Below are positions 8,752-26,418 of a stretch of DNA of 26,606 nt, in pieces (position 1 is the first letter of the stretch; the number at the start of each line of letters is the position of its first letter). The notes beneath the pieces were generated by a model, which did no database searches, was not told where the DNA came from, and saw only the letters and a list, made by a program, of their open reading frames with translations. The position numbers and the translations under genes are program-made. Origin of the DNA: a virus; IMG/VR virus record IMGVR_UViG_3300005830_000042, positions 1-26,606 of that record; one strand, written 5' to 3'.

Positions 8752-8761
8752 GGAGTAAACC

Positions 8762-10211: not shown

Positions 10212-10212
10212 A

Positions 10213-10764: not shown

Positions 10765-10972
10765 ATACATGACACATCCAAATCACGGTAGAATGCCTGT
10801 ATATTCAGATGGAGAGATTGAATATAACAGTAAATTCGGGTGGTCAGTTGAGGAAGACAAACAGGAAGAAAAGACTGTTGAATCACCCGAAGTATTGTAT
10901 GAAAAGAAGTTTGGGAAAAAACCTCATCACAAGATGAAACAGGAAAGCATTATCGCAGCATTGGAGGATTAA
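10757..10972 (+). CDS. Small head-region protein, 71 aa, unknown function
   Basis: Begins MLKYMTHPNHGRMPVYSDGEIEYNSK-FGW, a start found in short phage proteins lying between capsid and head-tail connector genes; their role is not known. The C-terminal half is charged, with EVLYEKKFGKKPHHKMKQESI, resembling a short helix-extended-loop-helix peptide (YEKKFGKKPHHKM). It overlaps the upstream gene by 8 bases and ends 1 base before the gp4-like gene. Confidence 0.6.
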   Translation: MLKYMTHPNHGRMPVYSDGEIEYNSKFGWSVEEDKQEEKTVESPEVLYEKKFGKKPHHKMKQESIIAALED

Positions 10973-10973
10973 C

Positions 10974-11672
10974 ATGGCTACTGCCAGCACAATGATACTG
11001 AAAGCCCTTAGATTGATAGGGGAGAAAGACAACGCTGGCACCCTCACCTCTACAGAAGAGACACTATATCTTTCTGATCTGAATTCCATGCTTGAGTCAT
11101 GGAGTCTTGAAAGATTGATGTGTTATCACATCCTCGAAGAATCCAAGGCATTAACTGCTAACGTAGGAACCTACACAATAGGTTCTGGTGGTGCATGGAA
11201 TACTGCAAGGCCAACCAGGATTGTATCTGCATTTATCAGGGATAGTTCCAATAACGACTACCCTGTGCGGATAATCCAGAAATCAGAATACGATGCTATT
11301 CCCGGAAAAAGCACTTCTGGAACCTATCCGGAAGTATTGTATTACGATGCAAATTATTCTTCTGGTTTAGCTACGATATATCTATATCCTTTGCCATCAG
11401 CAAATCTTACGCTTTATATCAGCTCATGGAAGCAATTACAGTCATTTTCAACCATTTCAACGGCGATTGCATTGCCTCCAGGATACCAAAGAGCTATTGA
11501 ATATAACTTGGCAATTGAGCTTTCTGGTGGTTTCAGACCTGTTTCTGCCGAAGTGATAAAGATAGCAAAAGAATCAAAAGCGGCAATAAAGAATGTAAAT
11601 GCTCCAGATGTAATCATGCAACTACCAATGGAAATTTCTGGTGTTTACCGTTCAAATATCATTACCGGATAA
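10974..11672 (+). CDS. Head-to-tail adaptor, P22 gp4 (tail accessory factor)-like, 232 aa
   Basis: In P22 gp4 binds the portal ring and closes the packaged head. This protein has the family's helical opening (MILKALRLIGEKDNAGTL..., LSDLNSMLESWSLERL, residues about 7-47), then a beta-rich domain with TYTIGSGGAWNTARPTRIVSA, then a helical end (QRAIEYNLAIELSGGF). It is longer than P22 gp4 (166 residues), as in many environmental podoviruses. Position between the head genes and a gp10-like gene supports this. GGAGG lies upstream of the ATG; it overlaps the next gene by a base. Confidence 0.85.
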   Translation: MATASTMILKALRLIGEKDNAGTLTSTEETLYLSDLNSMLESWSLERLMCYHILEESKALTANVGTYTIGSGGAWNTARPTRIVSAFIRDSSNNDYPVRIIQKSEYDAIPGKSTSGTYPEVLYYDANYSSGLATIYLYPLPSANLTLYISSWKQLQSFSTISTAIALPPGYQRAIEYNLAIELSGGFRPVSAEVIKIAKESKAAIKNVNAPDVIMQLPMEISGVYRSNIITG

Positions 11673-13177: not shown

Positions 13178-13569
13178 ATATATTGGATGGTATTCAGCTT
13201 GATATTTCAAGTTTTGCGTACCAGAATATCATTGGATTGAATGAGTGGATTACATTTACACCGGTATTCGGAAGCCTTACGGTAGTTGGAGCAACATCTT
13301 ATTTTGGAAGGATGAGGAAAGTAGGAAGGGCATTACAAGGGCAGGTAAAGTTTAGTGCTGCGACCAGTATTGCATCCGTTGCTGGAACTGATTACCTGAC
13401 GCTTCCGATACCTGCAATTGGTTTAACCGGATTTGGTGTAATGAGCAATGACACAACGAATGTTGCAGTAGGTTTATGCCATCTTGATGTTTCTGCATCG
13501 AGGCTGTATCTTCCAACACAGGTAGCATCAGCAAATGTATTTAACCTGTTTTTTGAGTATGAGGTGTAA
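13174..13569 (+). CDS. Small beta-sandwich virion protein (fibre-tip-like), 131 aa
   Basis: The pattern WITFTPVFGSLTVVGATSYFGRMRKVGRALQGQVKFS...TLPIPA is that of a short beta-sandwich often found at the ends of phage tail fibres and in separate virion proteins, in which a Gly-containing strand is followed by a FxGRMRKVG turn. It lies between the tail hub and the ejection-protein genes, so a tail-associated or receptor-facing role is plausible. It overlaps the hub gene by 4 bases. Fold inferred from pattern only. Confidence 0.6.
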   Translation: MNILDGIQLDISSFAYQNIIGLNEWITFTPVFGSLTVVGATSYFGRMRKVGRALQGQVKFSAATSIASVAGTDYLTLPIPAIGLTGFGVMSNDTTNVAVGLCHLDVSASRLYLPTQVASANVFNLFFEYEV

Positions 13570-13571
13570 TT

Positions 13572-14648
13572 ATGGGATTCCTTAGTGATGTATGGGGTGC
13601 AGTTCGTGATCCACTTGAGAGTGCTGCTGTTCTTGCTGGAAACTATGTCCTTCCAGGAAGCGCGTTGGTAACCAGTAATCTTGCAAGCAAAGGCTCCCAA
13701 CAACAATTGGATTCTCCACTTGGTCAATTAGCCCAACTTGGCACTGGTGTTGGTGGAGCATTTAATGGGAATCTTGCCAATTATGGCAAGGGATTGAATG
13801 CCATTGGTCTTGGAGGAGCTGGCGCAAGTATGGGTATCCCCGGTGCCATGAGTTCTGAAACGGCGGCACTGATGCAAGCCTATCCAGGACTTACTATGGA
13901 ACAAGCCTCTGCACTTACCTCTGTAGGATACGATGCCGCATCTCTATCTGGAGTTCCTCTTTCAGAAGCCGCTACTGCTGCCGACAATCTTATTGCACAA
14001 CCAAGTTTGTGGAGCAAGGCACTGGATTATTCCAAGAATGTATTGATGGGTGCTGGTGGAAGCCCAAAAGAATTGTTGGGACAACTCAAACAGGGAAATG
14101 TTGGACAACCAAATTGGGCGCAGGCGGGTGTTGATGTAGAAACTGCCAAGTTAATGTCTGATGCAGCAAGGGAGCGCACAGACTTAATGCGTGAACAGGC
14201 TGGCAAATATGAGGCAATGGGTGCGCCATATCGCCAGAAGTTATCAGATTTGTATGCTAATCCGGAATCGTACTTGTCCAGTTCAGAAGTACAAAAACCT
14301 GTGCAGATGGGATCAGATATTCTTGCGAGGTCATTATCTACTCACGGTAATCCGATAGGGTCAGGTAATGCCTTACAGCAGATGCAGGATTATTCCAGCG
14401 GAAAACTGTATTCAATGCTTGGAAGCGAGAAAGACAGGTTGGCTGGATTCGGTGGACTTTCTGGATACAACGCGGCAGCACCTACTGCTACCACAAACTA
14501 TATCGGAAGCAATGCAGCGAACCTTGACCCGTTGATGTATGGACTTGGAACAGTTGGGAATGATATTTTTGGTACTGCAAGGCCACAGGGAATACAACCA
14601 AATCAGACGAATCAATCAAGGTTAATGCAGTTATTGTCAGGGGCATAA
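13572..14648 (+). CDS. Putative ejection (internal virion) protein, 358 aa
   Basis: Starts MGFLSDVWGAVRDPLESAAVLAGN, an amphipathic helix typical of small internal proteins of podoviruses, followed by Gly/Ala-rich stretches (residues about 50-90: LGTGVGGAF..., IGLGGAGASMG), then a helical charged region (ETAKLMSDAARERTDLMREQ), and a disordered end. First of three consecutive genes of this style after the tail hub, where P22 encodes its ejection proteins gp7, gp20 and gp16. No enzymatic motif is seen; which P22 protein it replaces cannot be said. Confidence 0.62.
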   Translation: MGFLSDVWGAVRDPLESAAVLAGNYVLPGSALVTSNLASKGSQQQLDSPLGQLAQLGTGVGGAFNGNLANYGKGLNAIGLGGAGASMGIPGAMSSETAALMQAYPGLTMEQASALTSVGYDAASLSGVPLSEAATAADNLIAQPSLWSKALDYSKNVLMGAGGSPKELLGQLKQGNVGQPNWAQAGVDVETAKLMSDAARERTDLMREQAGKYEAMGAPYRQKLSDLYANPESYLSSSEVQKPVQMGSDILARSLSTHGNPIGSGNALQQMQDYSSGKLYSMLGSEKDRLAGFGGLSGYNAAAPTATTNYIGSNAANLDPLMYGLGTVGNDIFGTARPQGIQPNQTNQSRLMQLLSGA

Positions 14649-14650
14649 TT

Positions 14651-15796
14651 ATGGACTTCTCAATGCCGGGATATGCAGGATTGCAAGCAGCGAGAGCTGA
14701 GAATCAACGTCGTGTTGATGAACCTTATAATGAATTAACAAAACAACTTACTTTGGCTAAGTTATTGCAGGCACAACAGGATGCTGAAGCAACCAGACAG
14801 GCGCTATCTACATTGCCGCCTGAACAACAACTTGCCTATAGGATTGGTGGTGCATCTCATTTTGCGCAAATTCTTGCAGAGAATCGCAAAGCAGAGACTC
14901 AACAGTTAGAAGATCAAAAGGCTAGTACATTGGGCGAGACACTATCTTTTCTTCAATCACAATCTGCTCCTGAAGATTTGCAGCGACACATGCAAGCTGC
15001 GACTATGCAACTTGGAACTGCTCCTGAAAGACAGCAAGTTGTAAAGGAAGTTACTTCACCAGAAAAACCTATCTCAATAAATGATCCTGAAATAGTGAAA
15101 TTGATTCAAAAAAGAGATTATTACAATGCAAAAGGCGAGACTGCCAATGCCAAGGCGATTGATTTGAGAATTCAAAAATTACAAAGTGCTGAAGGTGATG
15201 GAATTAAGAAACCAAAAGGGCTTTCGAGGGAGGCTAGTCTTAAATGGGATTTGGATAATGGTTTGATTGACCAAGTAACATACGATATGGCAATAAAAGG
15301 AACGCCTGGTGCAATTGCTGCAGGGAAAAATGAGGACAAAATACAGAAACAAAAAGCAGCAATGGAAAATGCCAAAGAAAAAGCAAAAATTGTAGTGAAA
15401 AATATTGATGATGCATTGAAAGAGGTTGGATTATTTTCCACGGGTTTCATAGGAGAGACAACTGGAATTATTCCAGGTACTCCAGGATACAATCTAGAAG
15501 CGACACTTGACACCATTAAAGCAAATATTGGATTTGGTGAACTGCAAGCAATGCGTCAGGCATCACCAACTGGAGGAGCATTAGGGCAGGTAGCTGTTCG
15601 AGAATTGGATTTGTTGCAGGCAACTCTTGGGTCATTGAAAAAAGGTCAGAAAAAAGAGAAACTTGTCGAGCAACTAAATGCTGTACGCAAACACTACACT
15701 AACTGGAAAGATACTGTAGAAAAGGCATATAACGAAGGTGAACAACCAGCAGTAGGGACTGCGGAAGACTTCCTTCGTTCAAGAGGATTAAAATGA
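14651..15796 (+). CDS. Putative ejection protein, 381 aa
   Basis: A mostly helical, Gln- and Ala-rich protein (AKLLQAQQDAEATRQALS; EKAKIVVKNIDDALKEV). Residues about 265-370 contain a conserved-looking domain, TGFIGETTGIIPGTPGYNLEA, then TLDTIKANIGFGELQAMRQ, ASPTGGALGQVAVRELDLLQ, which recurs in phage internal or DNA-transfer proteins. It lies two bases after the preceding gene and overlaps the next by ATGA. It is probably ejected with the DNA to help cross the cell envelope; this is inferred from position and composition. Confidence 0.62.
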   Translation: MDFSMPGYAGLQAARAENQRRVDEPYNELTKQLTLAKLLQAQQDAEATRQALSTLPPEQQLAYRIGGASHFAQILAENRKAETQQLEDQKASTLGETLSFLQSQSAPEDLQRHMQAATMQLGTAPERQQVVKEVTSPEKPISINDPEIVKLIQKRDYYNAKGETANAKAIDLRIQKLQSAEGDGIKKPKGLSREASLKWDLDNGLIDQVTYDMAIKGTPGAIAAGKNEDKIQKQKAAMENAKEKAKIVVKNIDDALKEVGLFSTGFIGETTGIIPGTPGYNLEATLDTIKANIGFGELQAMRQASPTGGALGQVAVRELDLLQATLGSLKKGQKKEKLVEQLNAVRKHYTNWKDTVEKAYNEGEQPAVGTAEDFLRSRGLK

Positions 15797-17745
15797 AACT
15801 CGACTCTTCTCTTACACAGGATAAAGAATATCTTGCACTTCCTCCTATGGAACGTGCAAAGGTAGTGGAATTCCTTGCAAAACAAGACAAGGAAGTAATG
15901 AGTTTGCCTGATGAAGAAAAGATAAAAGTTCTAAATCATTTTGTTAATCTTGGGTCTGCTCAACAGGAACAACCTAAAGTTTCACGTAAAGAATTTGATA
16001 CCACACTAACAACGCCAGAAAAGATTGCACTTGGCGCTGAAAATCTTGCAAATAGAGTTCGCGGATTGTTTCCAAAACCATTGCAAATGGCGCTGCCATC
16101 TCAAGAAACGGCAAATCCGATACTATCAGGAATGGCAACATCTTATCGTAATGTCATTGGCGAAGGATTGTTTCCAAAACAAGGGGAATCTGTTGTCGGC
16201 CAGATGTTAGACCCTGTTGCTTTGGCTGCTGGTGGTGGCGCTGCTGGTTTAACAAAGACAGCACTAACAAAAGTTGCACCAGCATTATCTCCCTATCTTT
16301 CAGGTATAGCTCAAGGAACCGCAGCGGGATTAGGTGCTGCTGGAGTTTCTGGTGGTGATATTGGTGCTGGAGCAGGAATGGGTGCCGGAATAGGTGCCGC
16401 ATTACCTCCTGTATTGCGTGGGGCTGCATGGCTTGCAAAATATCCATATCATCTGGTTGAAAGATTTATCCCTGGCGGAAAAGATAAAATCGCAGGCCGC
16501 GCTCTTAATAAAGCTGCTGGAATAAATCAACAAAAAATAGTTGATGAATTAAAAAGTGCTGGAGATGAGACAACGGCAGGTCAAGCGGCAGTCAATGCAA
16601 ATAGCGCAGAGTTTTCCGCTTTACAAAAAAGAATTGAAAATTTACGTCCAACAGAATATGACAAAATAACACAAACTCAAGAATCTGGAAGGCAACAAGC
16701 ATTGCGTTCCATAGGTAAAGATTCTCCACACCCTGACGCGCCTGCTCCATATATGACAAGTGCTGAAAAAACCAGAGGGAAAATTGCTGAAAGAATGTAT
16801 GGAGATGCTTTTACTGCTGACGACATGAGATTGTCTGCGTTGTTGGCTAAATCAATGCAGGCAAAAGGTGGTATACATCAAGGAACAGCATCGCCAATTC
16901 CTCTTGACCAAAGAATTGTTCCAATTACCAAAAACAAGGTAATCATGGATATTGCAGAACAAGTAAGAATTGAATCTCCCCAATTTGGAGATGAGCCGAT
17001 TAATAACTTGCGCGGTTTGGATAGAATAAAAAAGATGATTGATGCAGATTTATTTGCCATCAGGAATAAACAACCAACGGCTTTGCAGAACGTAACAGAA
17101 GCAAGTCTTAATAATGCAAAATCTCAATTGCTTGAGGCAATGACCTTGCTTAGTCCCAAATATGGCAAAGCGATGGAAGTATTTGGTGAGAGATCAATTC
17201 CGATCAACCAGATGAAAATAGGAAAAATCCTCGAAAATGCACTATCAGGAACAGTTGGGGTTGCTGAACGAGGAACTGTATTTACCAATAAAGTGAATGA
17301 TGCGGCTCGTATAATTGCGAACGAAACAGGTCAAACAAGATACGAAAAATTGTCTGATCTATTTACACCAGAACAGATGGGTAAAGTAAATCGGATCATT
17401 TTTGATCTTAATAGAGATGCAAGGTTTGCAGAATTAGCAAAGAAAGGAATGCCTGCAATTAACAAACAGCTTTCTGATACAAGTCATGAAATAAGACCTC
17501 CTAACTGGCTTGATAGGGGGATGCAAATAGCAAATGCTGTAATCAGAAGAGTGCAGGGAGAAGCTGGGGAAAAATCTCAAATGGAAATTGCAAAGATTAT
17601 GCAAAACCCAAAAATGACTGCAAAGATTATGCAGGCAGCAAGTGATAGTGAGAAAAAAGCACTTATGAGATTAAAAATGTTTATTGAAAAAACACCTTAT
17701 ATTGCTGCATCAATTACGGCAGGAACAAATAATGAGCGCCAGTAG
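15793..17745 (+). CDS. Putative ejection protein, large, 650 aa
   Basis: Largest of the three ejection-type proteins, in the position of P22 gp16. The N-terminus has two short repeats (KEYLALPPMERAKVVEFL; KEVMSLPDEEKIKVLNHF). Residues about 140-215 are strongly Gly/Ala-rich and hydrophobic (AAGGGAAGL; GIAQGTAAGLGAAG; IGAGAGMGAGIGAA), suggesting a membrane-inserting segment. The rest is helical and charged. No lytic transglycosylase or peptidase motif is visible. Its 3' end overlaps the next gene by 14 bases. Confidence 0.65.
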   Translation: MKLDSSLTQDKEYLALPPMERAKVVEFLAKQDKEVMSLPDEEKIKVLNHFVNLGSAQQEQPKVSRKEFDTTLTTPEKIALGAENLANRVRGLFPKPLQMALPSQETANPILSGMATSYRNVIGEGLFPKQGESVVGQMLDPVALAAGGGAAGLTKTALTKVAPALSPYLSGIAQGTAAGLGAAGVSGGDIGAGAGMGAGIGAALPPVLRGAAWLAKYPYHLVERFIPGGKDKIAGRALNKAAGINQQKIVDELKSAGDETTAGQAAVNANSAEFSALQKRIENLRPTEYDKITQTQESGRQQALRSIGKDSPHPDAPAPYMTSAEKTRGKIAERMYGDAFTADDMRLSALLAKSMQAKGGIHQGTASPIPLDQRIVPITKNKVIMDIAEQVRIESPQFGDEPINNLRGLDRIKKMIDADLFAIRNKQPTALQNVTEASLNNAKSQLLEAMTLLSPKYGKAMEVFGERSIPINQMKIGKILENALSGTVGVAERGTVFTNKVNDAARIIANETGQTRYEKLSDLFTPEQMGKVNRIIFDLNRDARFAELAKKGMPAINKQLSDTSHEIRPPNWLDRGMQIANAVIRRVQGEAGEKSQMEIAKIMQNPKMTAKIMQAASDSEKKALMRLKMFIEKTPYIAASITAGTNNERQ

Positions 17746-18025
17746 TACCGGAATGAAAAGATATATCAGGGATGATGGCAATGAGGTATTTGCCGAACAG
17801 ATAGCAACCATATCTGATTATCCCAATCCTGATAATCATCCAAACATAAGGGGCGCAAAAGTATTAACTTTTACGAATGGGCGCGTTGCTAACCTGGTTC
17901 CTTCGTGGGCTGCAAAATATCCGTTGCAGGTTGGTGGATACTTTGTTGCATTCGATATTAATGGGAAAGTAGATGCTATCTATGAACCCGAAGTTAATTT
18001 TAACGCATATTATAAAGCGGGGTAG
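17732..18025 (+). CDS. Phage protein of unknown function, 97 aa
   Basis: ATG 17732 is chosen because AGGAA lies about 7 nt upstream; ATG 17753 (MKRYIRDDG) is an alternative. The protein contains RYIRDDGNEVFAEQIATISD, NPDNHPNIRGAKVLTFTNG, VPSWAAKYPLQVGGYFVAFD and a short beta-rich end. The QVGGYFVAFD-type ending is seen in small proteins encoded just upstream of tail fibres, of unknown function. It overlaps the ejection gene by 14 bases and sits 3 bases before the fibre gene. Confidence 0.6.
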   Translation: MSASSTGMKRYIRDDGNEVFAEQIATISDYPNPDNHPNIRGAKVLTFTNGRVANLVPSWAAKYPLQVGGYFVAFDINGKVDAIYEPEVNFNAYYKAG

Positions 18026-18028
18026 AAC

Positions 18029-19060
18029 ATGGCAGATACAGTATATATTCCAACCGTAACGCTTATCACAGCGGATACGATGAACGACCTGAACAGGTTG
18101 CATTACACCATTCTTGGCGATCCTGCTGACGCCTCTGCCGCACTTACTGGTTTGGGTGTATCAACATATGCCAAGACAATCCTGGATGACACTACGGCGA
18201 CTGCTGCATGTACAACATTGGGCGCAGCAAAACTTGATGCCAATAATGCTTTTACCGGACAGACAGTTACCCAAACACTTAGCACAAATGGGGCTGTAAC
18301 TTATACGATTACAAATGCAAATACCGGGAGTTCTGCTTATGCGATGTTAAAGGCAGCCAGTGATGCAGGGAATGTTTATATACAACAATTTTCTACTGCT
18401 GGAGGTGGGGAGGCTTATTTATATGGGAGTCCTTCTGGCGGACTGGTGGTTGGGGTATCAACTGCAACTGGAATAAAACTGAAGACAAATGCACTGACCC
18501 GTTTTACTGCTGGTTCGGCTGGCCAATGGGGGATAGGAACTTCTCCTGATTATGGTACTTTAGGGCAGTCGTTCAAGTCTGGTGGTACTGGTGCTGCGCC
18601 ATCATGGGGAACCGCAATAGCTCAAGTAGTGAACTATCAAACTGGTGCTGTGGCAACCGGAACGACTAACTTGCCACATGATGATACCATCCCTCAAAAT
18701 ACTGAGGGGGATGAGTATATGACCTTGGCTATAACTCCAAAGGCCACCACAAATAAATTGAAGATTGAGGTAGTATTTCAAGGAACTTTGAATATAAATG
18801 AAATGATGTCAATTGCTTTGTTCCAAGACACTACAGCTAATGCTATTGCGGCAGTTAGTAAAAACATCAGATTAGCGGCTTGTCCTGCTGTTGTTACTTT
18901 TACTCATTACATGAGTGCAGGCACAACCAGCGCAACAACTTTCAAAGTAAGGGCTGGAGGGCAAGCGGGAGCAACGTTAACATTTAATGGTTTAGCAGGG
19001 GGGCGTATATTTGGAGGTGTCGGAGCTTCGTCCATAACTATTACAGAAATTACACCATGA
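18029..19060 (+). CDS. Tail fibre protein, 343 aa
   Basis: Residues 1-45 (VTLITADTMNDLNRLHYTILG, then ALTGLGVSTYAKTI) are the usual virion-attachment start of podovirus fibres, followed by a Thr/Gly/Ala-rich shaft. Residues about 170-195 contain WGIGTSPDYGTLGQSFKSGG, a fibre-end segment found in many phages, and the C-terminal 140 residues (VNYQTGAVATGTTNLPHDD, then TEGDEYMTLAITPKATTNKL) form a beta-sandwich of a type common at phage fibre tips, likely the receptor-binding part. No intramolecular chaperone motif is visible. Its stop overlaps the next gene (ATGA). Confidence 0.82.
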   Translation: MADTVYIPTVTLITADTMNDLNRLHYTILGDPADASAALTGLGVSTYAKTILDDTTATAACTTLGAAKLDANNAFTGQTVTQTLSTNGAVTYTITNANTGSSAYAMLKAASDAGNVYIQQFSTAGGGEAYLYGSPSGGLVVGVSTATGIKLKTNALTRFTAGSAGQWGIGTSPDYGTLGQSFKSGGTGAAPSWGTAIAQVVNYQTGAVATGTTNLPHDDTIPQNTEGDEYMTLAITPKATTNKLKIEVVFQGTLNINEMMSIALFQDTTANAIAAVSKNIRLAACPAVVTFTHYMSAGTTSATTFKVRAGGQAGATLTFNGLAGGRIFGGVGASSITITEITP

Positions 19061-19662
19061 GAATAATACTGTTATTTCTGCTTTTTTCTTCCTATGCACA
19101 AGCAGGAAACTTTACCCTTGGCGTTGGATATTCCCATTTTCAGAAGGCTCCTAGTGGCAACTGGTATGATGAGAAATATTCTCATGATCTCAACATGGAC
19201 TCTCCAAGTGCCACTATACGCTATGACTTTGATGATATTAGCGTAGGGTACATGTACACAGGAAAAGTAACTTCAAACGCCCTGGCCAGAGCTTCTGATT
19301 CAGCTTATTCAGCCAATTCCCCATATCCATTATCCAGTTTTTATGGTACAGGCCATAGCGAGGGCTTCTTTCTTTCCAAGCGGTTTGGCAGTGAATATTA
19401 CTTTTCTGGCGGATTGATGGTTTACCGCTCTACATGGGAAATGGTAGTGCCTGATTTTCGACCTACAATTGATTCTCCTCCGCAATACCTAAAAGTTGAC
19501 CACAAGCCTAGTTGGATGATTCTGCCTATGGTTGGATTGGGATATACAAAAGGCAAATACGCTCTGGAATTGAACTTAATACCAGTCAAGACCTATGGAG
19601 ATGAGTATCCAGCAATTTACAGGGGATATGCAACTAATTTATCGGTACTGTATAAATTCTGA
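19057..19662 (+). CDS. Phage-encoded outer-membrane beta-barrel protein, 201 aa
   Basis: Has a clear signal peptide (basic MR, then IILLFLLFSSYAQA, cleavage after residue 16). The mature 185 residues alternate polar and hydrophobic residues in strand-length blocks (FTLGVGYSHF, SATIRYDF, ISVGYMYTG, GFFLSKRF, YYFSGGLMVYRS, PMVGLGYTK, YALELNLIPV, TNLSVLYKF), about eight strands, and it ends in Phe (YKF), the BAM-targeting signature of outer-membrane proteins. It is translationally coupled to the fibre gene. Possible roles: blocking the fibre receptor (superinfection exclusion), lysogenic conversion like Lom, or envelope weakening at lysis. The role is inference; the OMP architecture is well supported. 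Confidence 0.78.
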   Translation: MRIILLFLLFSSYAQAGNFTLGVGYSHFQKAPSGNWYDEKYSHDLNMDSPSATIRYDFDDISVGYMYTGKVTSNALARASDSAYSANSPYPLSSFYGTGHSEGFFLSKRFGSEYYFSGGLMVYRSTWEMVVPDFRPTIDSPPQYLKVDHKPSWMILPMVGLGYTKGKYALELNLIPVKTYGDEYPAIYRGYATNLSVLYKF

Positions 19663-19663
19663 T

Positions 19664-20020
19664 ATGACTGAGCAAACAAAAAGAATGAGTGACCCGGTTC
19701 TTGCCGAACTTCTCCAGATGGTCACGGAAACGCACGGCATCCTGAAGTCGCACATGCACGACCACGACTTAAACCATCAAATACTGGAATCGAAACTCGA
19801 AGCAGCACACACAGATATTCTGCTGGTGCGTGGCGGCTTTCCCGGTGACGATCCTACTGGGCATCGCATGGCTCATGAGGAGGATATGCGGCGCATCAAA
19901 GCGCGCTCGGACTTCTGGCAGAAGATGAGTTTCGAGATAGGGAAATACGGGCTGCTCGGTTTTCTTGGGTGGGCATGTTACGCACTATGGAATGCTTTTT
20001 TGCACGGGCCGGGAAAATGA
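19664..20020 (+). CDS. Single-span membrane protein of the lysis block, 118 aa
   Basis: ATG 19664 follows the OMP stop by one base; ATG 19685 (MSDPVL) is an alternative start. The first 55 residues are helical with many His residues (ILKSHMHDHDLNHQILESKL), then a DDPTGHRMAHEEDMRR hinge, and residues about 94-113 (KYGLLGFLGWACYALWNAFL) form one membrane helix. It overlaps the next gene by ATGA. Membrane proteins with a coiled N-terminus and C-terminal span in lysis clusters are often holin partners or antiholins, but the family is not recognised. Confidence 0.62.
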   Translation: MTEQTKRMSDPVLAELLQMVTETHGILKSHMHDHDLNHQILESKLEAAHTDILLVRGGFPGDDPTGHRMAHEEDMRRIKARSDFWQKMSFEIGKYGLLGFLGWACYALWNAFLHGPGK

Positions 20021-20196
20021 GCGAAGATAAACCCGAAGAAGATTTGCACATAAAACGGTGCAAAGGCTGTCCTTCATTCGACCAATCCAGGTTGGCTGGT
20101 CATGGGTACTGTCTAGAAGGGCGAACCCCTATGGAGCTTAGCAGGTTGCTCAATAGTGATTCACCTTGCATGTTTTTAGTTGGGGAAAATAAATGA
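20017..20196 (+). CDS. Small four-cysteine protein, 59 aa
   Basis: ATG 20017 overlaps the upstream stop as ATGA. Cysteines 15, 18, 32 and 51 (RCKGCPSFD...GYCLEG...SPCMF, spacing C-x2-C-x13-C-x18-C) suggest a metal-binding or disulphide-bonded mini-domain. The N-terminus is acidic and charged. There is no signal peptide. It overlaps the endolysin gene by 4 bases. I do not recognise a family; a regulatory or chaperone role in lysis is only a guess from position. Confidence 0.55.
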   Translation: MSEDKPEEDLHIKRCKGCPSFDQSRLAGHGYCLEGRTPMELSRLLNSDSPCMFLVGENK

Positions 20197-20567
20197 GCAG
20201 CAGATCACCTGAAGATTTGGCTCCAGAATTACGTGAAATACATAATCAGTTTATTCAAGCCTGCAAACTGGCTGGGCTGGACATTGTAACCATCTGCACC
20301 TACCGGAGCAATGAAGATCAACAGAAGGCATATGATGCGAAACTATCTAACTGCAAACCTGGGCAAAGTAAGCATAACATGGTCAACGCACAAGGCAAAC
20401 CTGCGTCAAAGGCATTTGATGTTGGGGTCATCCGTAACGGGAAATACATTGGAAACGGGAAAGACCCAAACTATCTCTCAGCAGGAAAAATTGGTGAAGA
20501 CCTTGGATTGAAGTGGGCTGGGCGGTGGACTGGTAAACTCAAGGAAGTGGCACATTTTGAATTATAA
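20193..20567 (+). CDS. Endolysin, M15-family peptidoglycan peptidase, 124 aa
   Basis: Cleaves peptide crosslinks of the host wall, as do the L-alanyl-D-glutamate peptidases of the VanY/T5-endolysin type. Metal ligands appear to be H61 (GQSKHN), D76 (KAFDVGV) and H121 (AHFEL), with E118 three residues before the last His as likely general acid/base. Between the first His and Asp there is an extended loop (NMVNAQGKPASK), as in a known phage subgroup. There is no signal peptide or SAR segment, so it should need the holin to reach the wall. It overlaps the upstream gene and precedes the holin. Confidence 0.88.
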   Translation: MSSRSPEDLAPELREIHNQFIQACKLAGLDIVTICTYRSNEDQQKAYDAKLSNCKPGQSKHNMVNAQGKPASKAFDVGVIRNGKYIGNGKDPNYLSAGKIGEDLGLKWAGRWTGKLKEVAHFEL

Positions 20568-20581
20568 TTAAAGGAGAAATT

Positions 20582-20788
20582 ATGATTAAAAAATACATCT
20601 CTGGCGGTATCAAATCTCGCACCTTATGGTTTAACGCTATTATTGCCGGATTTCTGTCTCTTGAGGCTTCATTCGGTATATTACAGCCGTTTATCAGCGG
20701 GGATGTTTACGCATGGAGTTCTATAGTGCTTATTGTTGGGAATAAGATACTGCGCGTTCTGACTACCAAGCCGATTTTAGAAAAATGA
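20582..20788 (+). CDS. Holin-like membrane protein, 68 aa
   Basis: Two predicted membrane spans, residues about 15-37 (LWFNAIIAGFLSLEASFGIL) and 42-60 (VYAWSSIVLIVGNKILRVL), with a basic N-terminus (MIKKY) and C-terminal tail (TTKPILEK). Small two-span proteins with an SRTLWFNAI start lie next to endolysin and spanin genes in many phages and are annotated as holins. A strong AAAGGAG precedes the ATG. It follows the endolysin and overlaps Rz by ATGA. The function, inner-membrane pores at lysis, is inferred from topology and context. Confidence 0.78.
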   Translation: MIKKYISGGIKSRTLWFNAIIAGFLSLEASFGILQPFISGDVYAWSSIVLIVGNKILRVLTTKPILEK

Positions 20789-21285
20789 TGAATCCACTAG
20801 CCATGAAAGCCACTATCTACGCCATTATCGCTTTGGGCGCGTTCTATGGGGGCTACAAGCTACGTGATTTATCGGCTGATGCAGATATAGCCGAGCTTAA
20901 AGAAAATGCCCGTATCGAACGGCTTGCAGCGAGGGAATTGCTTAATAGAGAGGTTTACGAAAATGGCAAACTCAAAGATCAGATACATACACAATCAATT
21001 GAGAATAAGAAAACAATTGAAGCCGCTCATCAGCGGCTTGCTGCTGTTGGGCGGGTGCAGCTCCCCGCAACCTTGTGTGCCGACTATAGTTCACCTGACC
21101 CCACCAGTGGAAGTTCATTCTCCCCTGCCGGAGCCAGGGTACTTCCAGAACAAACTGAAGGACAGGTTGGAAACGCTCAACGAGCAATGGACGAGTTCAT
21201 CGCTGGACTCAAAGCCGATTACGAAGTGATGGATGGCGTGGTAGAGATGTGTCGCATAACAAGCGATTGGGCAGGGCAGTTTTAA
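20785..21285 (+). CDS. Rz: Rz-like inner-membrane spanin, 166 aa
   Basis: An i-spanin: an N-terminal signal-anchor (ATIYAIIALGAFYGGY, residues about 9-24) followed by a periplasmic helical, charged region (ELKENARIERLAARELLNRE; KTIEAAHQRLAAVGRV), which pairs with Rz1 to fuse inner and outer membranes. It is longer than lambda Rz (153 residues) only slightly. An Rz1-type lipoprotein gene is embedded in another frame, the classical overlapping arrangement. Overlap with the holin (ATGA) ties it to the lysis operon. Confidence 0.85.
   Translation: MMNPLAMKATIYAIIALGAFYGGYKLRDLSADADIAELKENARIERLAARELLNREVYENGKLKDQIHTQSIENKKTIEAAHQRLAAVGRVQLPATLCADYSSPDPTSGSSFSPAGARVLPEQTEGQVGNAQRAMDEFIAGLKADYEVMDGVVEMCRITSDWAGQF
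20963..21229 (+). CDS. Rz1: Rz1-like outer-membrane spanin lipoprotein, embedded in Rz, 88 aa
   Basis: Lies wholly inside the Rz gene in a different frame. Residues about 22-32 (LISGLLLLGGC) form a lipoprotein signal with Cys32 as the lipidation site, preceded by a basic N-region. The mature part is Pro-rich (SSPQPCVPTIVHLTPPVEVHS), typical of o-spanins. ATG 20963 has GAGAGG upstream; the frame opens at 20906. Short mature lipoprotein plus embedded position make this a confident call. Confidence 0.85.
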   Translation: MANSKIRYIHNQLRIRKQLKPLISGLLLLGGCSSPQPCVPTIVHLTPPVEVHSPLPEPGYFQNKLKDRLETLNEQWTSSSLDSKPITK

Positions 21286-21300
21286 CTAAGGAGATAAATA

Positions 21301-21771
21301 ATGGCTACAGGTACGATTAAGTGGTTCGCGCAAGGACTGCACGATTTAGGTAATAAAATCCATGACTTGGATACTGATACCTTCATGATGGGTATTGTGA
21401 CTACTGCAACCGTTCCAGCGGTTAATACAGCCGCGCCTCATTGGGGTGGAACAGGAACAACCGACTTTTCTGCTAATCAGGTAGGCACTGGTGGGACGAG
21501 TTATACCGGCCCAAAGACTTGCAGCTCTCCTACTTGGACGTTATCTGCAACTGGCGCGGTTATGGATTGGGCCGACACCAATTTTCAGATGGCGCAGGAT
21601 GCTTCAGGATTTACCGATGGCGCTTATGGAATTATCTACAACAACAGCGATGCCAATAAACGAGCAATCGCCTATATTGAGATTTCCAGTACCGGTACTG
21701 CCTCTTTGGTAACTGGTGCCGTCAATATTAACTTGAGTCCATCTGGTGCATTAAGTCTTTCTCAAGCATAA
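21301..21771 (+). CDS. Phage virion-associated protein, 156 aa
   Basis: Opens MATGTIKWFAQGLHDLGNKIHDLDTDTFMM, followed by a beta-rich, Gly/Thr/Ser-rich body (WGGTGTTDFSANQVGTGGTSY, then DWADTNFQMAQDASGFTDG, AYGIIYNNSDANKRAIAYIE). Proteins with this start occur beside tail-fibre genes in many phages and are presumed structural; no function is known. AAGGAG precedes the ATG. It follows the lysis genes and precedes the large LamG repeat protein, so it probably belongs to an accessory fibre module. Confidence 0.65.
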   Translation: MATGTIKWFAQGLHDLGNKIHDLDTDTFMMGIVTTATVPAVNTAAPHWGGTGTTDFSANQVGTGGTSYTGPKTCSSPTWTLSATGAVMDWADTNFQMAQDASGFTDGAYGIIYNNSDANKRAIAYIEISSTGTASLVTGAVNINLSPSGALSLSQA

Positions 21772-21780
21772 TAGAATAGC

Positions 21781-24147
21781 ATGGCACTTTTTAGTTCCAG
21801 TAATATCTTTCGTTACAAGTTAACGACAGGCGGGATACTTGTTGATTCAAGTGCTTCTGCGCTTGATCTTACTGACCACGGAACTACTGGAAATGCCAAT
21901 GGTTTCCAAGGCGGTACGAATACTGCCGCCCTGTTTGATGCTGGTACAAAGTACCTATCACATGCCAGTGCAGCAACATATAACGTCACCAATCTTACCT
22001 TTGCTGCATGGGTTTATTTTCCAACTGCACTGCCTGGCAGTGTTGGTTACATCTGCCGGAAGTTTGGCGGCTCTGGAAATCGCAGTTATCGTTTCGGGGT
22101 TGACAGCACAGGTAAATTATACTTTCAGAAATCCCATAATGGTTCCACGCTGGAGACCCTTAATGGGACTGCTACTTTATCGACCGCTACTTGGTATCAT
22201 GTTGCTGTTCGATATAATAATACCTCTAAGCTATGTGAATTTTTCATAAATGGCTCGGCAGATAATTCTGCCACTTTCACTAATGCTGGTATTTATGCTA
22301 GTACAGCAGACTTTCTTGTTGGTGGTGATGGCTCAACGGGTAGTCTCAATGGGCGGTTAGATGATCTTTATGGCGAGAATGTTGCAATGTCCGATGCTGA
22401 CTTTGCGGCTTTGTACGCTCTTAGTGAAGATTTCCCACAAACTGTAACCATTGATGGAATCATTGGGCAAGCAAGCGCCTCTGGTTATACCGCCACAGTT
22501 GATAAGCAACTCACCATTACAGCAACGATAGGCCAGGCTACAGCAAGCGGAAATGATGCGTATATTTCCAGCGATTTAACTGTTGATGGCGTAATAGGTG
22601 ACGCTACAGCATCGGGATATACGGCGAGCGTTGATCGTCAAACTACTGTATCAGGTATTATCGGACAGGCGGATGCGTCAGGTTATACAGCAGTAGTTAA
22701 TTTTGGCGTTTTATATTGGGTAGGTGGTACTGGTAATTGGGATCCGGCAACTGAGGATAAAACCAACTTTTCTTTTACATCTGGGGGCGCTGGTGGAGAT
22801 GGATGGCCGAGTATTACGGACAACGTAATCTTTGATTCCAATTCCAACATCCCAGGCGGTGGTGCTTCCTACACTTGTAATTTAATAAATGCAAGCGGTA
22901 CTTATCCATCTCCAGGAACAAGCCTTGGATATTGCAAGAACATTACTCTTGGCAATCCGTCTGCTGGCACTCTGACCTTTGCCAAGCAGACTGGCAGAAA
23001 TAATCTGGTTATTGGTGGGTCAGCAACCATTGAGGCTGGAGTCAGTTTAACTGGTACAGGCGAAGGATGGTTGTTTATTTCCTCTGGCGCTGAAACCTTA
23101 ACCACTAATGCGGTTGCTATCCCATGGGAATTGCTTTTCCGTGGTACTGGAGGATCAATAACTCTTGCGGATAACCTTAATAATACTGGTTCAGCAATCT
23201 GGTTCCAATCGGGAACTTTTTATGGTAATGGCAAGAACATAACCACAGATACAATCACCCTGAAAACGTGGTATACCTTGGATGTATATCCTGGTGCCGC
23301 GTTGTGGAAATGCAATGGATTTTACGTCCTGCCTACAACTGGCGGGTCGGCATACAACACAAACGTTTATCCCCCTGCTACTGCTAGTGATTGGGAAGTT
23401 CGGCTTGAAGGAGTCAATACCAGCGGCATATTATTCGATGATCGCCGCGCCAAGGCTCCTCTGGGTACTCGTTCTTATGGCGTAATCAGTGACAACACCA
23501 CTGGCAGCGGATATGTGGCACTACTCGGTTCTTTTACCCTGGATACCCTTCGCACCATTCGCGCCGATTCCGTGATTCAGGATGGCACAATTCTAGGTTC
23601 TGGATACACTCGCACATTAACTAATTTTGATTGTAGTGGTACAGCAGGACATCTAAACACGTTCCGCCCTTATTCCACCAGTGTTTATACGTTTACCAAG
23701 TCTGGCGGAGGAACTATAACCGGCAACTATATGAGCTTTTCATATTGCACCGGAACCCCGACAAATACTTGGTATGTAGGCTATAACAGCACAAATGGCG
23801 GAAATAATACAAACCTGATATTCGGCAATTTAGTAACGATTACAGGAATTACTGGTGATGCAACAGCATCGGCTTACACTGCCAGCATTGACATTCCAGT
23901 TACCATTACAGGGGTTGTGGGGGATGCGACATCATCAGGATATACAGCAAATCTGGACTTTCAAATAACCATTCCAGGCTCTCTTGCTGAAGCAGTTGCG
24001 TCAGGGTATTTGGCTAATATTGACCAGCAATTTGATGTAAATGGGATAATTGGAGATGTTACGGCTAATGGCTACAGGGCAACAATACTATTCGGCAGAC
24101 CTATGGGAAGGGTCATGGGTAGTAATGTAATCAGGAGAATGCGATGA
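21781..24147 (+). CDS. LamG-domain repeat protein, probable tail fibre/adhesin, 788 aa
   Basis: Residues about 45-212 form a laminin-G/concanavalin-like jelly roll (LTFAAWVYFP; WYHVAVRYNN; LCEFFINGSAD; GRLDDLYGENVAMSDADF), typical of carbohydrate binding. Residues 221-308 hold four 22-residue repeats (consensus VTIxGIIGDATASGYTAxVD). Residues 309-683 are a long beta-rich region starting LYWVGGTGNWDPATEDKTNF, common in phage fibres and adhesins, and probably a beta-helix-like stack. Residues 684-771 carry four more repeats, followed by a basic end (GRVMGSNVIRRMR). Likely binds host surface glycans. No clear Shine-Dalgarno lies upstream, and the ATG follows the preceding stop by 9 bases. Confidence 0.75.
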   Translation: MALFSSSNIFRYKLTTGGILVDSSASALDLTDHGTTGNANGFQGGTNTAALFDAGTKYLSHASAATYNVTNLTFAAWVYFPTALPGSVGYICRKFGGSGNRSYRFGVDSTGKLYFQKSHNGSTLETLNGTATLSTATWYHVAVRYNNTSKLCEFFINGSADNSATFTNAGIYASTADFLVGGDGSTGSLNGRLDDLYGENVAMSDADFAALYALSEDFPQTVTIDGIIGQASASGYTATVDKQLTITATIGQATASGNDAYISSDLTVDGVIGDATASGYTASVDRQTTVSGIIGQADASGYTAVVNFGVLYWVGGTGNWDPATEDKTNFSFTSGGAGGDGWPSITDNVIFDSNSNIPGGGASYTCNLINASGTYPSPGTSLGYCKNITLGNPSAGTLTFAKQTGRNNLVIGGSATIEAGVSLTGTGEGWLFISSGAETLTTNAVAIPWELLFRGTGGSITLADNLNNTGSAIWFQSGTFYGNGKNITTDTITLKTWYTLDVYPGAALWKCNGFYVLPTTGGSAYNTNVYPPATASDWEVRLEGVNTSGILFDDRRAKAPLGTRSYGVISDNTTGSGYVALLGSFTLDTLRTIRADSVIQDGTILGSGYTRTLTNFDCSGTAGHLNTFRPYSTSVYTFTKSGGGTITGNYMSFSYCTGTPTNTWYVGYNSTNGGNNTNLIFGNLVTITGITGDATASAYTASIDIPVTITGVVGDATSSGYTANLDFQITIPGSLAEAVASGYLANIDQQFDVNGIIGDVTANGYRATILFGRPMGRVMGSNVIRRMR
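22441..22704 (+). repeat. Protein-level repeat block A: four 66-bp units
   Basis: Four consecutive units of exactly 22 codons, residues 221-308 of the LamG protein, with pattern [VI]xGxIGxAxASGYTAxV. At DNA level they are divergent, so the repeats are old or constrained at the protein level only. Confidence 0.85.
23830..24093 (+). repeat. Protein-level repeat block B: four 66-bp units
   Basis: Four further units of exactly 22 codons, residues 684-771 of the same protein, with the same pattern (for example VTITGVVGDATSSGYTANLD). The third unit is the most divergent (GSLAEAVASGYLANID). Confidence 0.85.
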
Positions 24148-24524
24148 GTACCGTTACTCTTGAGGATACAATTTACTTTCATTTCGGGACATCGGATGTA
24201 AATACTGGCGGAGCCAGTAATGCTGATTCAACCCCTGTGGCTGTGGTAGTAGAAGATGGGGTTGATATGGCCTATTCTCCTACGATTACCAATATCATTA
24301 CTGGTTTGTATATGATAACGATTGATGCCACAACCGCCAATGGATTCGAGGTTGGGAAAAGGTATTCTGTTTATGCAACCGCTACTGTCAATGGTGTGGA
24401 TGGCGTGGATGGTATTGCCGAGTTCGAAATTGCCTATACTTCAATACCTGAAGTTGATGTAAAGAAAATAAATGGGGTTACGGTAATTGGTGCAGGGAAT
24501 AGTGGCAATAAGTGGAGGGCTTGA
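24144..24524 (+). CDS. Virion accessory (fibre-region) protein, 126 aa
   Basis: A beta-rich, Thr/Val/Gly-rich protein of the type encoded at the end of phage fibre modules: a start DTIYFHFGTSDVNTGG, then PVAVVVEDGVDMAYSPTITN, then GLYMITIDATTANGFEVGKRYSV and GIAEFEI. The middle matches the common pattern of small Ig-like or upper-baseplate/fibre-associated proteins. It overlaps the LamG gene by ATGA and is the last gene of the late operon, followed by a strong hairpin. Exact role unknown. Confidence 0.65.
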   Translation: MSTVTLEDTIYFHFGTSDVNTGGASNADSTPVAVVVEDGVDMAYSPTITNIITGLYMITIDATTANGFEVGKRYSVYATATVNGVDGVDGIAEFEIAYTSIPEVDVKKINGVTVIGAGNSGNKWRA

Positions 24525-24651: not shown

Positions 24652-24732
24652 ACCTAATTACATGTTATGTAAAGTGTTTATTTTATTGATGGTGTAATTT
24701 CTGGCTTTTAGGGTGTCTATTTGTAGTTAGGC
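24652..24732 (-). other. Possible decayed attC site at the end of the cassette array
   Basis: The minus strand of gene 24727-25050 ends in GCCTAAC (24732-24726), the usual 5' end of an attC. At 24652-24662 the + strand reads ACCTAATTACA, which matches GCCTAACTACA at 9 of 11 positions, so the two ends can pair. The interior is AT-rich and I find no good inner stem, so the site is probably degenerate. The 24562-24651 stretch beside it holds nothing I can identify apart from short ORFs without support. Confidence 0.35.
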
Positions 24733-25050
24733 ATTCATCCCGCCAAGTGCCGCTGCAAGTTTTTTGAATACCTTGCTGCGCAAGCTATACCCGCGCTCTT
24801 GAAAGAAAGTTGCGCATTCTTTCAGCGCCTCATCCTTTAACTTGTCACTCTTCGGCGCGCCAAGCAGCGTTCTCAGCTTGTCGTTCTCCTCTTCTACAGC
24901 GCACAAAAGTTCACTCTGCGTTCTGAGCGCTTCCATAGCTGAATTAAAAACCCTTTCGAGTTGCTTGTTGCGTTCACGCAGCAATATCAATCCGGCGTGT
25001 TGTGCCGCTTGGCTTTTTCTGGCTGCTCTAATTGCCGCTTTTGTCATCAT
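24727..25050 (-). CDS. Cassette gene A: coiled-coil protein of unknown function, 107 aa
   Basis: Starts MMTKAAIRAARKSQAAQH, basic, followed by a long predicted coiled coil (residues about 20-65: LLRERNKQLERVFNSAMEAL, SELLCAVEEENDKLRTLL), then a KSDKLKDEALKECATFFQER region and a hydrophobic-basic end. GAGAGGTG is located about 4-10 nt before the ATG. The stop codon TAA lies within GCCTAAC, exactly as in integron gene cassettes, and a well-formed attC (25081-25150) precedes the gene. Small helical proteins of this kind are frequent in cassettes; no function can be assigned. Confidence 0.65.
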   Translation of the reverse strand: MMTKAAIRAARKSQAAQHAGLILLRERNKQLERVFNSAMEALRTQSELLCAVEEENDKLRTLLGAPKSDKLKDEALKECATFFQERGYSLRSKVFKKLAAALGGMNA

Positions 25051-25080
25051 CGTTCACCTCTCTGTTGTTAAGTAAAACCA

Positions 25081-25150
25081 GCCTAACTACGGCGCTCAAG
25101 CGGGACAGGCTGATGAATCGTCGCCTGCCCCTTAGCTTGATATGTTATGC
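25081..25150 (-). other. attC recombination site (a), 70 bp
   Basis: Outer ends GCCTAAC (25081-25087) and GTTATGC (25144-25150) pair with one mismatch. Inside, CAAGC/GCTTG and an inner stem GGGACAGGC with GCCTGCCC pair, leaving one extrahelical A on one side, the feature that sets the strand polarity of attC recombination. A loop of about 12 nt caps it. Size, symmetry and end motifs (R/L boxes) are those of integron attC (59-base element) sites. Confidence 0.82.
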
Positions 25151-25383
25151 GGCAACTCCACGCAGTAGCCAATAGCATCGGCTCCGGGCGTCGGGAACGT
25201 GCTGCCGGGGCTGCGCGTGTGGCCGTTCCACTGCCATCCGCGAACCGTTCGTAACCAAGCTCCGCCGTTGTAGGCGTGTGCCTTCGTGCCTTCCGGGTAG
25301 TCTCGCCACTCTCGGTCGCGCTTCTTCAGCCCGAGCGTGTGCTGGTTCTGGCTCGGGTAATCGCATTGCCGTTCGTTGTTCAT
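25132..25383 (-). CDS. Cassette gene B: small phage-type protein of unknown function, 83 aa
   Basis: ATG 25383 is chosen because AAGGAG lies 5 nt upstream. The protein shows RDYPEGTKAHAYNGGAWLRTVRGWQWNG, then STFPTPGADAIGY, ending LPHNISS. The pattern of YPEGTKAHAxxGGxWxRxxRGWxWNG followed by FPxPGxDA is familiar from small proteins in phages of Proteobacteria, of unknown function. Its stop codon is inside attC (a), so the gene and attC form one cassette unit with attC (b) on its other side. Cassette placement of a phage-like gene is unusual. Confidence 0.68.
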   Translation of the reverse strand: MNNERQCDYPSQNQHTLGLKKRDREWRDYPEGTKAHAYNGGAWLRTVRGWQWNGHTRSPGSTFPTPGADAIGYCVELPHNISS

Positions 25384-25397
25384 GGTCACTCCTTGCC

Positions 25398-25464
25398 GCA
25401 TAACACGCCGCTCTAGCGGGACTTCGCCGCTGCGCGGCTCAGCCCCTAAGCTCTGTCGTTAGGC
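25398..25464 (-). other. attC recombination site (b), 67 bp
   Basis: Ends GCATAAC (25398-25404) and GTTAGGC (25458-25464) pair with one mismatch. Inner symmetric boxes are CTCTAGCGGG and CCCCTAAGCTCT, and a central stem GCCGC/GCGGC surrounds a TGC loop. It shares the AGCTTAGGGG...TCCCGCTxGAGC core with site (a), so these two sites belong to one attC subfamily. Confidence 0.82.
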
Positions 25465-25465
25465 A

Positions 25466-25738
25466 TCATGGTTGGCGACTTATCCAGGCTTCCCATTCTT
25501 CTCGTGTGATTTTGTTGTTAGCGTATAGCTCTGCATGTTCCTTGAGCTTGTTCTCGCTGATGTATTCTGGATCGCCTAGATAGGGTGTACCGTTAATTTT
25601 CTTGGCTATGACGGCGTGGTTTCCTATTTGTACGCAGCCCATACAAGCACATGCGCTGCGCTCCCCGCCGCACCAGCGTTCGCGCCAATCTTTTGGAATT
25701 TGCTGCATGATTTCGTCCACTTGTGCTTCGGTTTTCAT
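25466..25738 (-). CDS. Cassette gene C: Cys-rich small protein of unknown function, 90 aa
   Basis: ATG 25738 is chosen because GAGGAG precedes it by 7 nt; the frame is open further upstream. The N-terminus is helical (EAQVDEIMQQIPKDWRERW), followed by a Cys cluster C23, C30, C32, C35 (RWCGGERSACACMGCVQIGN) that may bind metal, and a charged helical tail with YISENKLKEHAELYANNKIT and REEWEAWISRQP. A CGGERxACxCMGCVQ segment occurs in small uncharacterised proteins of phages and proteobacteria. The stop codon TGA lies one base before attC (b). Role unknown. Confidence 0.65.
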   Translation of the reverse strand: MKTEAQVDEIMQQIPKDWRERWCGGERSACACMGCVQIGNHAVIAKKINGTPYLGDPEYISENKLKEHAELYANNKITREEWEAWISRQP

Positions 25739-25772
25739 GTTTTTACTCCTCAAAATCAGTAACTTTAAACGC

Positions 25773-25834
25773 GCCGAACCCATCATTCAACCGCGACCGC
25801 CAAAAGCGGCGGCGCGTTAATTCAGACGTTAGGC
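25773..25834 (-). other. attC recombination site (c), 62 bp
   Basis: Ends GCCGAAC (25773-25779) and GTTAGGC (25828-25834) pair with one mismatch. Inner boxes ATTCAAC and GTTAAT pair with one extrahelical base. A strong GC stem CCGCC/GGCGG with an AAAAGC-type loop caps it. It is shorter and has a different core from sites (a) and (b). Confidence 0.75.
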
Positions 25835-25890
25835 CCGAATCCAGCGCTTGAAACGTGCCCACAGTGTTGGGCGTTCTGGTATGCGTATCG
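25835..25890 (-). other. Very short insert between two attC sites (ORF-poor mini-cassette)
   Basis: Only 56 bp separate attC (c) and attC (d), so this cassette would be about 118 bp with its attC. A minus-strand frame is open from within attC (d) to a stop inside attC (c) and reads PIRIPERPTLWARFKRWIRA, but it has no ATG, GTG or TTG start in frame. It is either the truncated 3' end of a former cassette gene or a non-coding cassette. Confidence 0.5.
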
Positions 25891-25954
25891 GCTCAACGGG
25901 TACTTCAACCCGGACGGCGCAAAAGCGCGCCGCCGGTTAACTTATACGTTGTGC
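25891..25954 (-). other. attC recombination site (d), 64 bp
   Basis: Ends GCTCAAC (25891-25897) and GTTGTGC (25948-25954) pair with one mismatch. The inner boxes TTCAACC and GGTTAA pair with one extrahelical C, and a GGCGC/GCGCC stem surrounds an AAAA loop. It shares its core layout with site (c), which makes a second attC subfamily in the same array. Confidence 0.75.
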
Positions 25955-26418
25955 AGGGCAAGGATTTTATTTAACGTCTCTTGCATCCTCGCATTGCTTT
26001 CTTGTACAGATAGCAAACACGCTCGCAAATTTTCAATTTCATTTGCCGCATCTAAAAGATGATTGGCAAGCCCGTCTTCTGATTGGCTGTTGCTCCATTC
26101 TTCCCACTCCTGTGTGGGGGGAGCCCAGCCTGTTAATTTAAAGTTAGAGCGCATCCGTATGTCTGTCGCACACCTATTTGCCTGTGCAATACAGCAGTCA
26201 TCCGCTCCGGTATCCATCTGTAGACATGCCTGTCTGTCACAAGCCATCGCGCATGCTTCACGCTCTGCCATAACTGCCGCTTTCACTGTTTGTTCCAGCA
26301 CCTCAAAAGTTATCCCTCCGGTTCCTTCGTAGATGATTGTGCCTGGTTGCTTTCCAGCCTCAATCGTTGCGCCGTTTTTGCGCGCCAGTTCTATAATTTC
26401 GTTTCTTTGCATGGTCAT
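25942..26418 (-). CDS. Cassette gene D: phage-type accessory protein, 158 aa
   Basis: Residues about 38-60 (FEVLEQTVKAAVMAEREACAMAC) followed by a run of Cys (C60, C65, C75, C76, C83) and ATDIRMR is the familiar AEREACAxxC...A.IRxR pattern of uncharacterised proteins found widely in phages and prophages of Proteobacteria. The C-terminal 40 residues form a coiled coil (ANHLLDAANEIENLRACLLS). The stop codon lies in attC (d). ATG 26418 has no clear Shine-Dalgarno; ATG 26412 is an alternative. Gene E lies 19 bases upstream with no attC between them, so the pair may be one transcription unit or a two-gene cassette. Confidence 0.68.
   Translation of the reverse strand: MTMQRNEIIELARKNGATIEAGKQPGTIIYEGTGGITFEVLEQTVKAAVMAEREACAMACDRQACLQMDTGADDCCIAQANRCATDIRMRSNFKLTGWAPPTQEWEEWSNSQSEDGLANHLLDAANEIENLRACLLSVQESNARMQETLNKILALHNV

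Follow-up and report, generated by a model that had tools for sequence, protein, structure and literature searches.

The window, by which we mean the whole stretch of DNA analysed, corresponds to a 26,606-base virus record of IMG/VR. Its plus strand carries a late operon ending at 24524, and on the minus strand, from 26418 down to 24727, lie short genes with palindromes in between; late operon and array are convergent. The features are:

1732..24524, plus strand: P22-like late operon (TerL, portal, scaffold region, coat, head closure, tail end), from phrog_38, phrog_156, phrog_283, phrog_578 and PF16510 and from synteny with phage MW202573 and contig G044
24645..24732, minus strand: attI-like terminus, GCCTAA^C TACAAATAGACACCC...TAGGTGTATAA, with no intI after it
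25081..25150, plus strand: predicted attC site B, 70 bp, R'' GCCTAAC and R' GTTATGC; 47.0 bits, E 1.5e-10
25398..25464, plus strand: predicted attC site C, 67 bp, R'' GCATAAC and R' GTTAGGC; 53.5 bits, E 2.8e-12
25773..25834, plus strand: predicted attC site D, 62 bp, R'' GCCGAAC and R' GTTAGGC; 40.3 bits, E 8.5e-9
25891..25954, plus strand: predicted attC site E, 64 bp, R'' GCTCAAC and R' GTTGTGC; 32.7 bits, E 8.5e-7
25942..26418, minus strand: 158-aa gene, an open reading frame upstream of the first hairpin

PHROGs families for terminase, portal, coat and head closure were all matched in the window, and the portal also matches the P22 portal family PF16510 (E 3e-164). The window thus has a P22-type portal and coat and a terminase, in the order of a P22-like late operon, which bears out the initial annotation in placing the array at the convergent end of such an operon. 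A search with the tail-end protein (21781-24147) found no relative. Methyltransferase and glycosyltransferase-like genes lie between the coat and head-closure genes (8995-10211) and are kept in MW202573 (56% and 74%) and partly in G044. At the right end, positions 26455-26478 and 26583-26606 form an inverted repeat, perfect over 24 nt, and its outer arm coincides exactly with the contig end; this is perhaps an assembly fold-back, and it may account for the contig ending ahead of gp157 or intI. A small unlisted frame, read by eye, with a GTG start and AAAGG ahead of it (26425-26570, minus strand) encodes VKSWYRDPAGRFC...ELWFWAIVGLVFFL; the product is probably a small membrane protein, and the frame part of the early operon.

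We searched the window with an attC covariance model (R1) trained on 22 sites from bacterial genomes, three from class 1 resistance cassettes and one from phage TJE1, with the window left out of the training set. With filters off the model gave exactly four matches, with E-values, to be read as rough, of 8.5e-7 to 2.8e-12 and a next-best E of 1; in 24 other P22-like phage loci (L001-L021, L023-L025) it found nothing at E <= 0.1. The four imperfect palindromes of 62-70 bp that the initial annotation had described are therefore real, and they do not lack the support of an independent attC model. Each has R''/R' and L''/L' boxes with extrahelical bases, and site E carries an extra C in its L'' arm (TTCAACC vs GGTTAA), as class 1 attC sites do. 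We conclude that, by sequence criteria, the palindromes are attC-type sites. Four such sites within 874 bp and no intI make the array a CALIN, that is, at least two attC close together without an integrase gene; neither PF00589 nor TIGR02249 had a match in the window. Folding energy was dropped as proof of attC: it proved a weak witness, with z from -0.5 to -3.2 and no advantage over shuffles for site C. A right-hand inverted repeat with ATCCAAC/GTTGGAT ends was rejected as an attC because the covariance model gave it no support. An exact search of viral contigs with the left arm of site D found nothing, nor did blastn of the array against phages.

Boundaries of the cassette units were placed at the RYYYAA^C boxes, under a unit definition taken from the breakpoints of cassettes common to several viral contigs (below), which gives four units:

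25829..25948, minus strand: cassette unit 1, hairpin E plus about 60 nt, gene-less, the E-D unit of about 120 bp
25459..25828, minus strand: cassette unit 2, hairpin D plus a 106-aa frame with likely start at 25738; no family match above cut-off
25145..25458, minus strand: cassette unit 3, hairpin C plus an 89-aa frame with likely start at 25383; end boxes 7/7
24727..25144, minus strand: cassette unit 4, hairpin B plus a 107-aa gene (24727-25050); end boxes 7/7

Start and end boxes within one cassette are complementary, matching at 7/7 positions in the units of the 107-aa and 89-aa genes, 6/7 in that of the 106-aa gene and 5/7 in the gene-less one. Together with the model matches, this end-box rule supports the layout of attC-bearing cassettes that had been proposed. 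An open reading frame had been said to end at every palindrome: this holds for E and B, which contain the stops of the 158-aa and 89-aa genes, and for C, where the 106-aa gene stops 2 nt ahead of the box, but not for D, at which no reading frame ends. The 107-aa gene stops inside the terminal box at 24726-24732. The view that at least three of the array products resemble phage accessory proteins did not hold up, since none of the four array proteins matched a PHROGs family even at E 0.1 and none had a match above cut-off; cassettes of sister phages do have such matches. The 158-aa protein has no PHROGs, Pfam or phage tblastn match and no relative among viral contigs and phages, and the covariance model places no attC 5' of its gene, which can be read either as an anchor gene or as an old cassette with a decayed attC.

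Of intI and attI, for which the initial annotation would have had the array searched, the record has no intI, and at 24645-24732 it has a sequence that appears to resemble attI. We rejected 24652-24732 as a fifth attC; it has no covariance-model match and looks like attI. The terminus, GCCTAAC-TACAAATAGACACCC, fits the bacterial attI form (box)N6-TAGACACC; in bacteria the attI box is mostly 110-150 nt away from intI, and N6-TAGACACC is often present. The terminus of G044 is similar (TGGACACCCTAAAAATACCGGCAATTACACC), several other phage arrays without intI also end in a box-N6-TAGACACC-type form, and in MW202573 no attI-like terminus was found. TAGAC follows 4 of 20 terminal boxes at exactly the same spacing (p 4e-9, for a motif picked after inspecting some of the sequences). 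A profile built from ten bacterial attI sites scores weakly in phages; it ranked the terminus as the best score of the window, yet only at E 0.72, and we therefore relied on the box-plus-motif test.

In a canonical attC the extrahelical bases lie in L'', on the gene side. By this mark the canonical top strand is the plus strand at all four sites, and the genes are on the minus strand; the usual cassette arrangement, with attC 3' of a gene in the same orientation, is thus absent from the window, a point that the initial annotation did not contain. We scored gene polarity in other arrays by a strict rule, requiring a start codon with a Shine-Dalgarno-like motif just past one site and a stop at the next, under which about half of all intervals could not be called. 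Viral intervals came out as 84 inverted and 2 canonical, against 9 inverted and 73 canonical among the listed matches of the same attC pattern in bacteria (Fisher p 1e-34). Because intervals inside one locus are not independent, counts by locus are safer, and these stand at 33:0 (inverted:canonical) in viruses and 5:31 in bacteria, the latter again among the matches listed. A looser rule gave 83:11 for viruses and 9:111 for the bacterial matches listed, and a cruder test based on the longest reading frame showed the same trend with more noise. In a second, independent, class-1-like attC subtype from IMG/VR, 44 intervals were inverted and 7 canonical; five of these seven come from L269/L271 (one record), L240 or L247, which to judge by their contig names are isolate genomes. 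Taken together, these counts argue that genes run antiparallel to attC in the window, in MW202573 and in most other phage contigs, and that bacteria with the same attC type have the opposite arrangement. Inverted cassettes also occur within three otherwise bacterial arrays (L081, L085, L137), possibly as phage cassettes stored in host integrons, and in two short contigs binned in Planctomycetota and Dependentiae MAGs (L100, with a methylase, and L118), which are probably misbinned phage contigs.

The location of the array could be compared between related phages. MW202573, the best portal relative among named phages (39% identity), is a circular, complete genome of 34.6 kb from Manatee Spring and is listed as a CALIN carrier by Qi et al. 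2023 (PMC9892861). Its coat and glycosyltransferase are 55% and 74% identical to those of the window and stand in the same order. Its array lies on the strand opposite the late operon, directly behind a Sipho_Gp157 gene, and faces the late-operon end, with genes antiparallel to attC; intI is absent from the circular genome. In G044, an IMG/VR contig with a coat 62% identical to that of the window, gp157 is followed by a single attC cassette, then by an attI-like site and the late-operon end. The three thus keep the location and have no cassette in common, the variable content at a fixed place that the initial annotation had anticipated. The distal end of the early operon, facing the late-operon end, appears to be the place of the platform.

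One attC-subtype pattern matched 44 IMG/VR stretches, and two exact patterns found about 80 contigs in one viral collection, so that the statement that cassettes occur very rarely on phages was too strong. Every record of the 44-stretch set has model-supported attC sites, up to 13 per record, and in the stretches read the next gene starts shortly after the site. IMG/VR contigs are predicted viruses, and the hallmark portal and terminase families are found in only part of them: P22-type portals, Terminase_6N or GpA terminase in a good part, with others matching phage proteins by blastp. In G028, G044, G031 and G013, attC sites stand on both strands, far apart, as two separate arrays per phage. 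Start and end boxes match perfectly in 51 of 69 viral cassettes, and the mean match across the cassette, 3.59 of 4 variable positions, exceeds both the shuffled value (2.54 +- 0.08; 0 of 2000 shuffles as high) and the match within one hairpin (2.57). Bacterial arrays behave alike, at 3.61 against 2.47 when shuffled (among the matches listed). Where single cassettes are common to otherwise different viral contigs, homology begins 0 to +3 nt from the 5' hairpin and ends +7 to +10 nt into the next site. Because these natural breakpoints place attC 5' of the gene, we conclude that the mobile unit on the sense strand is [C-hairpin-gene-RYYYAA], attC moving 5' of its own gene; this is what canonical cutting by IntI at G^TT would give with a reversed gene.

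An integron integrase scores above the curated cut-off in only 2 of 45 viral records, G022 and G033, and any tyrosine recombinase is missing from 29 of 46. The G033 contig is that of a lambda-like phage, with a GpA terminase, a lambda-type portal, an NlpC/P60 tail protein and a phage integrase beside IntI. A search with the IntI of G033 and G022 yielded 21 viral loci. Where found in these loci, attC sites have the normal geometry, on the strand opposite to intI and upstream of it, with L228 and some of L226 as exceptions; callable genes are inverted and co-directional with intI. In most of the loci a box 67 nt ahead of the intI start agrees at 7/7 positions with the expected end box of the last cassette and is followed by conserved sequence; this box is the predicted attI, and it leaves no room for a conventional promoter. 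In one locus, L216 (G046), cassettes and IntI stand between the terminase region and a portal-like gene, inside the late operon and not at its end.

In the IntI tree, 12 viral rows and 2 bacterial-genome rows form a supported clade (98/94). One of the two bacterial-genome rows is Thiobacillus denitrificans RG. Its chromosomal integron has genes of canonical polarity, with IntI divided over two frames (L235:12389-13404), and another of its contigs bears an antirepressor, inverted methylase cassettes, an intact IntI, a phage integrase and gltX. This organism thus appears to carry its own control, with a chromosomal integron that is canonical and a prophage integron that is inverted, and the prophage IntI might serve both arrays. 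As for cargo, 7 of 89 phage cassette proteins match N6_N4 methylase, with single matches to C5 methylase, MT-A70, Mom, Phage_gp49_66, RNA ligase and the Acb2/Tad1 hairpin.

An array without intI, in a set of records of which most lack it, could be an inert CALIN, a block of cassettes captured once by a phage ancestor with no later cassette recombination in phages; capture by illegitimate or off-target events has been proposed (Qi et al. 2023, PMC9892861). Such a block should not differ in every cassette between relatives that keep its location, and its end boxes still match within cassettes although the boxes of neighbours differ. With single cassettes common to otherwise different phages and a polarity unlike that of host arrays as well, we regard an inert block as unlikely.

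It is very unlikely that the array is the host's, a chromosomal integron to which a phage or the end of a prophage was joined by integration or chimeric assembly. Among the matches listed, sites of the same attC type are common on the chromosomes of Gallionellaceae, Thiobacillus, Methylobacter and their relatives, GC at the array is 0.5-0.59, up from about 0.45, and the contig ends in the 24-nt inverted repeat. But GC is back at 0.46 beyond the array, host arrays have the opposite gene polarity, and the relatives largely refute a host origin: MW202573 holds its array at the same place inside a complete circular phage genome, as does G044 on its contig, with a similar attI-like end. Because these two carry arrays with different cassettes at that place, the array appears to be a resident feature of the phage and not an adjoining host integron, which disfavours the prophage beside a chromosomal integron that the initial annotation had named as its alternative. 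Chance resemblance of intergenic RNA hairpins (terminators or processing signals) to attC is scarcely credible: the palindromes do lie between co-directional small genes and, in the sense strand, ahead of the next ribosome-binding site, but they are homologous to and alignable with class 1 attC, their boxes match across the cassette and not within the hairpin, the same box recurs at the attI position beside intI, and Rfam has no match in the window.

We therefore think it highly probable that the array is a phage-resident integron platform that lacks an integrase and is read in reverse, made up of an attI-like site, the four attC cassettes and, upstream, a gene on the early strand. A phage early promoter on the far side would transcribe the array toward attI; a Pc promoter reading from attI would be useless to these genes because of their direction. 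Since the window has no intI and its right contig end is incomplete, IntI is presumed to be supplied in trans, by a host chromosomal integron or by a co-resident phage with its own intI. The integrase would cut the attC bottom strand at G^TT, and cassette circles would be joined at attI or attC. With the phage early promoter on the far side as the sole promoter, expression would be confined to cassettes whose genes point toward attI, and selection would thus keep a separate pool of inverted cassettes. This pool, which in sister phages often encodes anti-restriction methyltransferases, would circulate mainly among phages, and its cassettes would be silent behind a host integron promoter.

With less assurance, we lean toward a broader reading in which phages own an integron system: a dedicated cassette pool with attC ahead of the gene would be transcribed toward attI from a phage promoter, and during infection an IntI of phage or host origin would mobilise it. 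Phages unrelated to each other, such as P22-like podophages and lambda-like siphophages, could in this way exchange anti-restriction and other accessory genes while insulated transcriptionally from host integrons. Integrons are viewed as belonging to bacteria, which use them to gather genes such as those for antibiotic resistance, and as being read from an attI promoter into cassettes that point away from attI. The back-to-front arrangement of the window recurs in dozens of other phages, so that phages seem to have a version of their own. If true, this would mean modular phage-to-phage gene exchange with reversed polarity, an integrase clade of its own and a methyltransferase-rich cargo, and would make testable how phages keep pace with restriction, how the pools stay apart and where new cassettes arise. 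The polarity of attC relative to the gene strand would be a simple mark separating phage from host arrays in metagenomes.

That phages contain attC clusters, some of them recombined by IntI1, is already known (PMC9892861). The phage CALINs of Qi et al. 2023 (PMC9892861) are, like the array of the window, attC clusters that lie in phage genomes and lack intI; gene/attC polarity, an attI-like terminus, a lineage-conserved location and shared inverted cassettes go unreported in the main text, and phage TJE1 of that paper is canonical, unlike the window. In the open-access literature searched, we found neither reversed gene polarity nor a phage IntI clade nor reverse-read phage integrons described. 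The new part, and the most novel element, is the gene polarity reversed relative to attC. Sedentary chromosomal integrons of freshwater beta- and gammaproteobacteria resemble the window in attC type, attI form, the cassette-end rule and single small reading frames, but their genes point away from attI, divergent from intI, whereas those of the window point toward attI. Class 1 resistance cassettes (aadA, cmlA) align with the window in attC boxes and in the polarity of the extrahelical bases, with the gene before attC where the window has attC before the gene. In 'inverted integrase' integrons, as in the phage integrons that carry intI, intI is co-directional with the cassette genes; there intI itself is turned round, whereas the phage integrons keep the normal intI/attI/attC geometry and only their genes are turned.
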